From the NCBI GenBank assembly GCA_945907755.1, contig CAMDTN010000028.1, positions 1 through 32,011 on the forward strand: DNA of 32,011 nucleotides, in the 5' to 3' direction. The notes below the pieces were generated by a model. The model was not told the origin of the DNA, made no database searches, and saw only the letters and a program-made list of their open reading frames with translations. Origin of the DNA: Singulisphaera sp. GP187 (GTDB taxonomy: Bacteria > Planctomycetota > GCA-002687715). Shown here piece after piece: positions 3,437-17,398 of the stretch (position 1 is its first letter; each line of letters begins with the position of its first letter). Both the position numbers and the translations under genes were made by a program.

Positions 3437-3447
3437 CCGGAGACACT

Positions 3448-4434
3448 ATGCGCCGTTTCATCTTCTTGTCCGCGCTCTTGCTGCTGGTCGGTGGCCTCGC
3501 CACCGCCCAGATCGAAGCAGGCGCGCGCATGACTCCACCCGAGCTTGAAGGCTTTGCCCAGACGGGCGCGAAGTCCACAGCAGACTTGGCCGGCCGCGCC
3601 GTCCTCTACGAGTTCTTCGCCTTCTGGTGAGGCCCTTGCGCAGGGGCGGTCAGCCACCTGAATGAATTGCAATCGAAACTTGGCGCCGAAGGCCTCACCG
3701 TTATTGCGGTGACCAGCGAAGCCACTGGGCCTACGGAAAAGTGGATCGCCGAAAAGGGCGCGAAGTATGGCTATGCCTACGACAAGGGCGGCAAGTTCAT
3801 GCGCGCTTGTGGCGTTAGCGGTATTCCGCACTCGGTGCTTGTCGATGTCAGCGGCAAGGTCACATTCAGCGGCAGCCCCAGCGCCATCACAGAAGACATG
3901 GTGAAGTCTGCATGCGCAGGCGCCATGACCACACCACTCTGGGAACTGCCCAAGCCGTTCGCCAAAGTGCGCACGGCCATCGCCAAGGGCGAACTCGCGG
4001 CAGCATTGAAAGAAGCGCAAGCGTTGCAGCAAGATGCCACGAACGGCGAGACAGCCACGAAGGTGGCCGATGCTGTGAAGGGCATGGTTGCGGGCGCGCT
4101 CAGCTCCGCCGAAGGCCTTTCCACCGCTGGCGATTTCTTGGGCGCAGAACGCGAATTCCAGCGCTTGCTGAAGGCTGCTAAGGGCATGCCCGAAGAAGCC
4201 TCAGCGCGCGAGAAGCTGACGGAGTTGACCGGCAGCCCCGAAGCCAAGAAAGGCATGAAAGCGCAGAAAACGCTGGAATCCATGACGGCGGAGCCAGTGA
4301 AGACCAAGAAGGACGCCGAGAAGCGCGTTGCCGAACTGGAAGCCTTCATTAAGAAAAACGAAGGCACTTTCGCTGGCAAACAAGCGCTGGAGCAAGCAGA
4401 GAAGTTGAAAGAAGCCTTGAAGAAGGGCGACTGA
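3448..4434 (+). CDS. selenocysteine-containing TlpA/thioredoxin-like protein (UGA at 3628-3630 read as Sec)
   Basis: Read through one in-frame TGA, this is a 328-residue secreted protein. Residues 1-20 are a signal peptide (MRRFIFLS... ending LATAQ). Residues about 30-150 form a TlpA/AhpC-like thioredoxin fold: EFFAFW60-U61-G-P-C64, then the cis-proline loop GIPHSVLVD. Residues about 165-328 are charged helices rich in Ala, Lys and Glu, perhaps TPR-like. U61 occupies the place of the nucleophilic cysteine of WCGPC. Sequence similarity to the fold continues without a break on both sides of the TGA, and a SECIS-like stem-loop follows at 3641-3660. GGAG lies 5 nt before the ATG. Expected role: extracytoplasmic thiol-disulfide or peroxide chemistry. 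A nonsense mutation is the alternative, but the stem-loop and the exact active-site position argue against it. Confidence 0.92.
3641..3660 (+). promoter_or_regulatory. bacterial SECIS element of the seleno-thioredoxin mRNA
   Basis: CAGG pairs with CCTG and GGC with GCC, with one bulged A (3656), giving a 7-bp stem and a GGUCA loop. The GGUC begins at 3648, after 17 nt following the UGA (3631-3647). The E. coli fdhF SECIS bound by SelB also has a GGUC loop, a bulged base in a short stem, and nearly the same distance from its UGA. The element lies within the coding sequence, as bacterial SECIS elements do. Confidence 0.88.
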
Positions 4435-14631: not shown

Positions 14632-15672
14632 TTACGCCGGGAACCACTGGTAGAGCATGAAATAAATGATGACGCCGGTGACGGAAACATAGAACCACAC
14701 GGGCAGCGCGATGCGCGCCGCGCGTACGTGCTTCGGGCGGTTGTCTTTCAGCCCGTGACGGATGGCGTTGATGATGAAGGGCAGCACGGCAACGGCCAAC
14801 ACAGTGTGCGTGCCGAGGATGGTCAGGTAAACGATGCGCGCGGTGGGATGCGCTTCGGGGAACGAAGTGACCACCCCCGCTTTGAGCGCGTGGTAGGTGA
14901 GGTAGCAAGCGAGGAACACGGCGGAGCAGGTGAATGCCGCGAGCATCGCGCGTTTGTGGCCCGCGATGTCTTTGCGCCTAATGCGGCGCCAACCAACGAA
15001 CAACAATATTGCGGCCAGACCATTCAGCGTGGCGTTCAGCGGCGGAAAAAAGCTGAGGTCCATGGCGGCCTCCACGCCCAACAGCATGTGTGTGTCGCGT
15101 GCGAGGCGCTCCATGCCGGCGGGGTCTTCATAGTCATAGACGCCGTGCACCACGAGGCCGCGGTCAACCAGCACAAAGCGCGTGCTGTGATTCACCGGGT
15201 CGCCGGGGTCGCCCAATTTGAAGCCCGTGCGCATCAAAGACGCAGTGGTTTCCGGCGTGCCGCGCAAGAAGGCCCAGCGCGCAGGGTCTGCGCCGCTGCG
15301 TTGGGCATAATTCGCCAACGCTTCTTTGGTGTCGCGCTCGGGATCGACTGTGAAAGTGACCAGCCGCAGCCCTGGCAAAGCGCGCATTTTTTCCTGCAAG
15401 CGCCCCATGGCGGATGTCATGGCGGGGCACGGCCCGCTGCAATAGGTGTAAATAAAATCGGCGATCCACACTTCGTTGTTCAGCGCTGCGGAACCAAGTT
15501 CGCTGCCGTCTTCGCGTTGGAAGCTGAAGGCAGGCAGCACAAAGCCCAAGCGCGGGAGTGCGGCTTGGATGGGCGCTGCTTGCGTGTCACCTGCCGCAGC
15601 GGGGCTGTCCTGCGCCGCGAGTTGCGCGCAGCACAGGCCGAGGAGTGCGAATAGCAAATAGCGGTGGCGCAT
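14632..15672 (-). CDS. SCO-type copper chaperone fused to a DUF420 (CtaM-like) membrane domain
   Basis: A 346-residue two-domain oxidase assembly protein. Residues 1-21 are a signal or anchor sequence (MRHRYLLFALLG...). Residues about 40-200 are the thioredoxin-like SCO domain with its copper site C78-SGP-C82 and H162 (VNHSTRFVLVD). Residues about 205-346 are a four-helix DUF420 domain (FFPPLNATLNGLAAILLF, HKRAMLAAFTCSAVF, GTHTVLAVAV), a family linked to heme-copper oxidase maturation. SCO delivers copper to, or reduces, the CuA site of subunit II. The two functions are normally on separate genes. Fifteen more in-frame codons exist upstream but would spoil the signal peptide. It is the last gene of the oxidase operon and follows the small selenoprotein gene by 45 nt. 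Confidence 0.92.
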   Translation of the reverse strand: MRHRYLLFALLGLCCAQLAAQDSPAAAGDTQAAPIQAALPRLGFVLPAFSFQREDGSELGSAALNNEVWIADFIYTYCSGPCPAMTSAMGRLQEKMRALPGLRLVTFTVDPERDTKEALANYAQRSGADPARWAFLRGTPETTASLMRTGFKLGDPGDPVNHSTRFVLVDRGLVVHGVYDYEDPAGMERLARDTHMLLGVEAAMDLSFFPPLNATLNGLAAILLFVGWRRIRRKDIAGHKRAMLAAFTCSAVFLACYLTYHALKAGVVTSFPEAHPTARIVYLTILGTHTVLAVAVLPFIINAIRHGLKDNRPKHVRAARIALPVWFYVSVTGVIIYFMLYQWFPA

Positions 15673-15717
15673 GTTGGCTCTCAGTGTATGCACGCCGGCG
15701 TGCCGCCCGCAGCGCAC

Positions 15718-15966
15718 TCAAGATTCAGAGGATTCGGCTTCCGCTGCCTGGCATGCGCGATCGGCCTTGCGCACCAAGAACACCACCCAAGTGCCCAAGC
15801 TGAGCACCGCACCGATCATGAAGTAAATGCTGATGTTGTAGGCCAACGCCATGCCTTGGCCGGTTGCGTCATTGGCAGCGACCGCCGCCTTGCAGTTCGG
15901 TCAACCGAACGCAAAGCGCGGCAGTAAGCACAGCAGCGCGGCCAGTGTGAAGAGGGTGCGTTTCAT
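15718..15966 (-). CDS. small membrane selenoprotein in the oxidase operon (UGA at 15901-15903 read as Sec)
   Basis: Read through one in-frame TGA this frame gives 82 residues. Residues 1-21 are a cleavable signal-like leader (MKRTLFTLAALL... ending AFG). Then come U22-P-N-C25, the polar stretch KAAVAANDATGQGMALAYN, one transmembrane helix (about 46-67, ISIYFMIGAVLSLGTWVVFLV) and a charged tail. The order signal, CPxC-like motif, GQG-linker and single helix matches small proteins I recall from planctomycete oxidase operons, where the first residue of the motif is Cys. A perfect SECIS-like stem-loop follows at 15874-15889. The gene sits between subunit IV and SCO-DUF420. Predicted role: periplasm-facing UxxC redox or copper site helping CuA assembly. 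Without recoding, only a 21-codon ORF would be seen. No clear ribosome binding site. Confidence 0.85.
15874..15889 (-). promoter_or_regulatory. bacterial SECIS element of the small selenoprotein mRNA
   Basis: On the - strand GGCGGC pairs with GCTGCC (one G-U) to make a 6-bp stem closing a GGUC tetraloop. The loop begins after exactly 17 nt following the UGA, the same spacing and loop as the element at 3641-3660 on the other strand. It lies inside the codons for the segment after the UPNC motif. The closing pair is C-G in both elements. Confidence 0.87.
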
Positions 15967-16013: not shown

Positions 16014-16310
16014 TCAGAATTCCCAGAGCAGCACGAATGCCAAAATGCTCGCGCAAAGCAGCGGCGCGCAGGCCACCAACCCGAGGATGCGAGCCTCGAA
16101 CTTCAAGTGCATGAAGTAGCGCGCGATGTAGAGGATCTTCACCACTGAGATGGCGATGAGCAGCGTTACAGCCAGCCCGTGGTTGCCTTTCATCGCGAAT
16201 GGGATGACCACTTCGATCACCGTGAGAGCCACGAGGAGGGCGAAGATTTTCATGTAGGGCGGGTGCGTATGAGCCACAGCGCCTGCATCTGCGTGATTGG
16301 GATGAGACAT
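16014..16310 (-). CDS. cytochrome c oxidase subunit IV (prokaryotic COX4/CyoD-like)
   Basis: A 98-residue inner-membrane protein with three predicted helices (IFALLVALTVIEVVIPF; VTLLIAISVVKILYIARYFMHL; ILGLVACAPLLCASILAFVLLW). This is the normal size and plan of the small fourth subunit of bacterial aa3 and bo3 oxidases. The segment VVKILYIARYFMHLKFE is the family's most recognisable region. The N-terminus is His-rich (SHPNHADAGAVAHTH). GGAG lies about 10 nt before the ATG. It starts 17 nt after the subunit III stop. It helps stabilise CuB or the subunit assembly rather than carrying cofactors. Confidence 0.88.
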   Translation of the reverse strand: MSHPNHADAGAVAHTHPPYMKIFALLVALTVIEVVIPFAMKGNHGLAVTLLIAISVVKILYIARYFMHLKFEARILGLVACAPLLCASILAFVLLWEF

Positions 16311-16327: not shown

Positions 16328-17359
16328 TCAGATCAGGTAAATGAGCATGAACAACAGCACCCACACGAGGTCCACAAAGTGCCAATAGAGCCCGGCCACT
16401 TCGATGATGCTGCTGTTCTTGGTGGTGTAGGCACCTTGGAAGGCGCGGCACAGCACAATGCCCAAATACAGCACACCCACAGCCACATGCAGGCCGTGGA
16501 ATCCGGTGAGCACAAAGAAACTGGAGCAGAACAGGCTGGCCACTTTGGCTCCGGCTGCGCGGTGCGCGGCCATGATGGCGCCACGCTGTGCGGGCTCGGC
16601 ATCTTCCAATTCTGCGCGCAATTCCAGGCCATGGCGCCCCTTGGGTTCTGCTGTGCTGCCAGGAACGCCATAGGCCGCATGGTGAATAATGCCACCGCGA
16701 ATGGGGCGCATGTCCATTGAGGCACGATCACGCACCTCCAATTCAAGGAAAAGATAATCGCCTTCGCTGAAGTTGCCGCTGCGGAAATCTGCAGCGGTTT
16801 TCCCAGCGGGCATGGCTACCGGCGCGTCCGGTGTGCCATCCATCTTGCGTTGGCCATACAACTGCGTCGCTATTTCCAGTTTGGTCAGCTTGCCGCCAGC
16901 TTCGGCGCTGCGCGTAACAGCCTTGTCCAAATCCACCAACGCCATGCCTTGAATTGTGATGCCTTCATGCGCGAAGTGCGTCCATTCAAAGACTTGGAAA
17001 CCCACAAAGAATGCGCCGCCCAACATGGTGAGCGCGATGTACTTCTTCAGCCCGGCTTGGTTGCCGTCCTGCAACGCAGCCAAAGCCTTCACCATGGTCA
17101 CGGATGAGCAGATCAGCACGAAGGTGTTCAACCCCGTGAGGATCAAGTCCATGGGCAAGCTCCACGCCGGTTGCCAAGGCATGCCTGTGAGGCTGGGTTG
17201 GTCGACCGCAGAGATGCGCAGCACCATGTAGGCGCCAAGGAACCCAATGAAGGCCATGGCGTCCGACACGATCAAGAGCCACATGGCGAACTTGCCGTTG
17301 GTGAACTCGAAGTTGCCTTCGGTTTCGATGTGCGGCAGCGCGTGATGATCTGAAGACAT
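16328..17359 (-). CDS. coxC: cytochrome c oxidase subunit III with a large periplasmic insertion
   Basis: A 343-residue inner-membrane subunit. The start is set at the ATG preceded by GAGGA; 12 more in-frame codons upstream look untranslated. Family landmarks are present: [19 protein letters not shown] in the first helix, FQVFEWTHF near 121-129, [12 protein letters not shown] near 281-292 and [13 protein letters not shown] near the end. Between the EW motif and the TGFHGLHV helix, where the usual loop has a few dozen residues, there are roughly 140 polar residues (about 133-273), including [10 protein letters not shown]. Subunit III supports proton uptake and stability of subunit I. The role of the insertion is unknown; it may contact a partner such as the cytochrome c donor. 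Confidence 0.93.
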
Positions 17360-17398
17360 GCGTTCAGTTCCTCTGGGCGCCACGAGGCACCCCATTTC

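Follow-up and report, generated by a model that had tools for sequence, protein, structure and literature searches.

A predicted small selenoprotein family encoded beside heme-copper oxidase assembly genes in Planctomycetota

CcmH is a CxxC haem-ligation factor with a signal peptide, a CPxC near the mature N-terminus and one membrane helix; the eukaryotic SelK and SelS are tiny proteins that also have one membrane helix, with Sec located in a flexible segment. CuA assembly requires reduced cysteines, and in Bradyrhizobium the reduction is supplied by TlpA (PMC6696091). DUF420 (CtaM) is needed for oxidase assembly and has been proposed to export copper to SCO; SCO-CtaM fusions have been noted in planctomycetes (PMC13344008). 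A 2026 catalogue lists 119 prokaryotic selenoprotein families, and the family described here is absent from it (PMC13188914). Within the open-licence literature no description was found of selenoproteins with DUF420, in heme-copper oxidase assembly or in planctomycetes, in agreement with the original prediction that a Sec motif in an oxidase assembly operon is undescribed; one planctomycete genome paper gives its selenoprotein candidates in a supplement (PMC4807772).

The window (the whole stretch of DNA analysed, 32,011 nt from Singulisphaera sp. GP187) carries an oxidase operon in which a 296-nt gap between COX4 and SCO-DUF420 is occupied by the selenoprotein gene (Table 1); the gap had been correctly described as filled, its size having been given as 297 nt. 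Read on the minus strand from 15966 to 15721 with UGA as Sec, the gene translates as MKRTLFTLAALLCLLPRFAFG-U-PNC-KAAVAANDATGQGMALAYNISIYFMIGAVLSLGTWVVFLVRKADRACQAAEAESSES*, which bears out the anticipated layout (a signal peptide, then U-P-N-C, a lone membrane helix and a charged tail), with the UGA at the position given for it; the second in-frame TGA (15718-15720) terminates the gene. Gene callers return no normal-length ORF at this locus, and the selenoprotein is overlooked by ordinary gene finders because its reading frame runs through a stop codon. The start of the neighbouring SCO-DUF420 gene is called as GTG 15717; an ATG near 15672 is more likely. C-terminal to the transmembrane helix is a basic tail, VRKADR, and a K/R-rich tail follows the helix in homologues as well; this charge pattern suggests that the motif lies outside and the tail inside. 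In the AlphaFold2 model a short helix begins with UPNC and precedes a single long helix spanning residues 39-81, with pLDDT 94-96 across residues 51-80 (mean pLDDT 83.9 and pTM 0.52 for the model overall).

Table 1. Positions in the window of the selenoprotein gene, its elements and the neighbouring oxidase genes
Feature	Positions	Strand	Basis or detail
Selenoprotein gene (whole)	15718..15966	minus	ATG 15966-15964, 82 residues, stop TGA 15720-15718
Signal peptide MKRTLFTLAALLCLLPRFAFG	15904..15966	minus	A-F-G immediately ahead of Sec
UGA codon 22, read as Sec	15901..15903	minus	UGA/Cys interchange among 84 homologues
Predicted redox motif U-P-N-C	15892..15903	minus	Motif positions 1 and 4 invariant in 74-sequence alignment
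Predicted bSECIS hairpin GGCGGC-GGUC-GCUGCC	15874..15889	minus	6-bp stem, loop GGUC 15883-15880, 17 nt past UGA
One transmembrane helix, approximately residues 45-67, containing the near-invariant Met50	15766..15834	minus	Alignment and AlphaFold2
SCO-DUF420 (CtaM-like) fusion	14632..15717	minus	Pfam SCO1-SenC and DUF420; contains CSGPC
Cytochrome oxidase subunit IV (COX4_pro), upstream neighbour	16014..16310	minus	Pfam
Cytochrome oxidase subunit III, upstream neighbour	16328..17395	minus	Profile for finding the same neighbour in relatives

Homologues were found in 6 of 12 genomes by an order-level search, all six with UGA at the same codon, and a profile search within the order was positive in 9 of the 12. 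In a phylum sample of 392 Planctomycetota genomes the first profile matched 88, and a broader profile matched 110 of the same genomes. Among 84 distinct homologue sequences an in-frame UGA is present in 32 and a Cys codon at the identical column in 52; homologues with CPxC in place of UPNC, proposed as a check, do exist. Cys forms also occur in one Ignavibacteria record (L035) and one Kapaibacterium record (L038). In the 74-sequence alignment no columns other than motif positions 1 and 4 are invariant; M1 and M50 come close (M50 in at least 90%), and no His or other additional ligand is conserved.

The hairpin that follows the UGA had been called a perfect SECIS-like element at the right distance; position and distance are confirmed, and the stem falls short of perfect by one G.U among its six base pairs. 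Its energy is -9.7 to -11 kcal/mol (-11 for a 24-nt stretch), an unremarkable value on its own (equalled by 6 of 200 shuffles); the hairpin is convincing because of covariation among relatives and not from its single-sequence fold. Over the 32 UGA members the stem columns are 86.5% paired, with both sides varying in five of the six pairs; the covariation score is 0.373 versus 0.134 for shuffled alignments, a value reached by none of 500 shuffles, whereas in 32 Cys members these columns are 37% paired and do not covary. Relative to a codon null, in which the protein sequence is fixed and codons are redrawn from local usage, the UGA members form 5.19 of 6 pairs versus 4.16 +/- 0.16 and carry 25 GGUC loops versus 4.0 (null maximum 9), while the Cys members equal the null for pairs (2.15 versus 2.20); the stem-loop is thus conserved in UGA members only, as foreseen in the original prediction. 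In all 22 UGA members with a GG[U/G] loop carried on at least five contiguous pairs, the distance from the UGA to the loop start is 17 nt. The published bSECIS model (PMC13188914) is satisfied by the window hairpin and by 28 of 32 UGA members, versus 12 of 52 Cys members; in the other 4 of the 32 a model-conforming hairpin is absent. The RNA element also dictates a protein residue: the loop-forming Val codon is GTC in every one of the 28 UGA (UxxC) members that have Val there (28/32 overall). In L073, L078 and L080, all of one genus, Leu replaces this Val, the GGUC loop is absent and the hairpin that conforms to the model has a CGGGU loop and is found 32 nt past the UGA. RNAalifold on all 32 UGA sequences returned a different, weak 4-pair structure instead of the 6-bp hairpin, probably because the GGUC loop is missing from seven UGA members; restricting the input to canonical members recovered the 6-bp hairpin. 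The tree of these short proteins, with nine UGA/Cys changes and just 10 starred branches, is poorly resolved, which leaves a phylogeny-corrected pair test without power. Judged by its comparative pattern, the hairpin is a selenocysteine insertion element inside the coding sequence.

A CxxU form, with Cys first and Sec second (e.g. AQC-A-M-U-K-E-S), was recovered with the broader profile in 14 genomes (L126-L134, L136-L138, L140 and L145), and its hairpin is relocated downstream with the UGA in at least seven of them: in the seven members whose stems have at least five contiguous pairs, a GGU loop lies 18-21 nt past their own UGA. A held-out UxxC form, L141, has a perfect GGUC hairpin. By its reading frames this is a family in which Sec is possible at either C-x-x-C position, in the three forms UxxC, CxxC and CxxU. 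Instead of the CxxC motif, a divergent relative, L139 (G288), has Cys and Sec side by side (KSCUPPQG).

The presence of Sec machinery in the genome had been named as a further check, and SelB (324.6 bits), SelA (498 bits) and tRNA-Sec (78 bits) are all encoded in Singulisphaera sp. GP187, the tRNA-Sec gene adjoining selA (G000:C67:7864-9364). SelB is present in 30 of 32 UGA genomes versus 18 of 38 with Cys (p = 2e-5); completeness is 77% and 89% for the two UGA genomes that lack it, and tRNA-Sec is encoded in one of these. SelB scores above cut-off in 234 of 392 genomes of the phylum, and selenocysteine use looks common in Planctomycetota. The window holds another selenoprotein candidate at 3445-4434 on the plus strand (UGA 3628-3630), a TlpA-like thioredoxin with W-U-G-P-C; a GGUC lies about 18 nt past its UGA, and its single-sequence fold is not exceptional.

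Two other readings of codon 22 were weighed. Were the UGA an ordinary stop, with the remainder non-coding or decayed, the failure of gene callers to see a normal-length ORF would be expected, and a lone hairpin proves little where the DNA is GC-rich; however, the UGA sits at the same codon in all six order members and in 32 phylum sequences with the downstream frame conserved, codon changes after the UGA between the pair G000 and G011 are 11 synonymous and 7 non-synonymous with third positions varying most, and the covarying hairpin is restricted to UGA members. This comparative evidence refutes the chance or pseudogene reading, which is left with a negligible probability. Decoding by another route, such as reassignment of UGA to Trp, found no supporting point and is exceedingly improbable: the aligned residue is Cys, never Trp, in 52 of 52 other sequences, Sec machinery is present, and UGA cannot have been reassigned because TGA also ends the selenoprotein gene, as it does in several genomes; reassignment was rejected. 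The claim of a very small selenoprotein within the oxidase operon is sustained by UGA/Cys interchange, the covarying hairpin and the Sec machinery, and the gene almost certainly encodes a selenoprotein in which UGA is decoded as Sec.

Of 84 homologues, 59 carry A-x-[AG] at -3/-1 ahead of the motif and 78 fit a relaxed SPase I pattern. A lipobox before the first Cys or Sec occurs in just 2 of 84, and a lipoprotein reading was rejected. The suggestion that Sec is the first mature residue fits the window protein and most members but is not universal; in some members the probable cleavage site is separated from the motif by at least one residue (e.g. AMA|QCSMC and SAFA|QGCPMC), so Sec in first place cannot be essential.

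Genes for COX, SCO, DUF420 or CtaA/B lie near 29 of 32 UGA loci and 43 of 52 Cys loci, counted with kinship ignored, and a frequent order in the family is COX3-COX4-SCO-DUF420-selenoprotein family gene; a minority of members, several CxxU forms among them, are unlinked to oxidase genes. DUF420 is found in 104 of 110 family genomes versus 58 of 282 others, kinship again ignored, and the family tracks DUF420 whether linked to oxidase genes or not. This genome context makes a role in copper-site assembly of heme-copper oxidase likely. As to the nature of that role, a redox catalyst is somewhat favoured over a copper carrier, and the best explanation, of moderate confidence, is a membrane-anchored, outward-facing selenol/thiol oxidoreductase for oxidase copper-site assembly. 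It is hypothesized that signal peptidase removes the leader and that the helix serves as an anchor in the cytoplasmic membrane, U-P-N-C lying at the outer membrane face and the basic tail on the inner side; UxxC would then cycle between selenol-thiol and selenenylsulfide as a reductant dedicated to oxidase biogenesis. The targets kept reduced for metallation may be the CxxxC of SCO, the CuA cysteines of subunit II, or copper passed on by DUF420/CtaM; the proposed job would be that of TlpA for ScoI and CoxB in Bradyrhizobium. Cysteines suited to such a reductant are present in the window's SCO (CSGPC) and subunit II (CAELCGLGHTKM). The motif is probably redox-active since Sec is tolerated at either thiol, which is the best available hint; counting against a redox role, substrate binding and selenenylsulfide recycling lack an explanation because the thioredoxin fold is absent.

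The main rival is a copper relay, in which the outward UxxC/CxxC together with Met50 would pass Cu(I) from the DUF420/CtaM exporter to SCO, Sec serving as a soft metal ligand with no redox catalysis. It gains from the near-invariance of Met50, from SCO and DUF420 as neighbours, from the proposal that CtaM exports copper to SCO (PMC13344008), and from the catalogued occurrence of Sec in a CopZ-family protein, a cation ATPase, a mercuric transport protein and a Cu/Zn efflux transporter (PMC13188914); however, variation among UxxC, CxxU and CxxC is typical of redox motifs, easily oxidised Sec seems costly as a passive ligand, and the lack of a conserved His or further ligand also tells against a relay, which is considered possible but rather unlikely. 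Oxidases often contain small subunits with one helix, and the single helix and operon place beside COX4 would suit an accessory structural subunit in which the UxxC bond is structural or protective; such a subunit is improbable given that the gene is unlinked in some genomes, that it co-occurs with DUF420, an assembly factor, and that Sec would be of little use in a structural bond.

These findings add a new selenoprotein family, and an overlooked gene, to respiratory operons across much of Planctomycetota. If the oxidoreductase proposal is true, it would be the first selenium link to the building of the cytochrome oxidase copper site, for which the SCO/CuA reductant is still debated; the UxxC/CxxC/CxxU series is in itself a natural experiment on why evolution puts Sec at the first thiol or at the second.

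The window protein is matched by no Pfam or NCBIfam model. It has a CxxC-type motif and lacks the thioredoxin fold: neither a Pfam thioredoxin match nor a PDB fold match was obtained, and the AlphaFold2 model of its 82 aa consists of helices only. A PDB sequence search gave no significant match to a solved structure, the matches returned being membrane-helix noise, and weak QOXA matches in four members (best 3.7e-5) probably reflect helix similarity. The proposed likeness to TlpA of Bradyrhizobium is that of a membrane-anchored protein with an outward two-thiol motif serving SCO and the CuA cysteines (PMC6696091); TlpA, however, is thioredoxin-like, whereas the window protein has a short helix after the motif and is without a Trx domain. 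With the assembly factors CtaM/DUF420 and SCO the selenoprotein family shares operon and genomes, but it is a separate small protein of unrelated sequence. The family resembles CcmH in its signal peptide, CPxC near the mature N-terminus and one helix, although none of 74 members has a Pfam CcmH match; SelK and SelS are alike in size and single helix, by description and not by sequence, and differ in organism and in Sec position. UxxC, a bSECIS and Cys homologues are common to the known UxxC/CxxU selenoproteins (thioredoxin, glutaredoxin, Prx-like, DsbG-like, UGSC, CYCXC and others in the catalogue), from which the window protein differs in being without an NCBIfam or Pfam match and outside the 119-family catalogue. 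It is likely that the family is an undescribed one and the first to be connected with heme-copper oxidase assembly: a minimal redox peptide anchored in the membrane and lacking a thioredoxin fold, with Sec at either CxxC position and a SECIS hairpin following the UGA.
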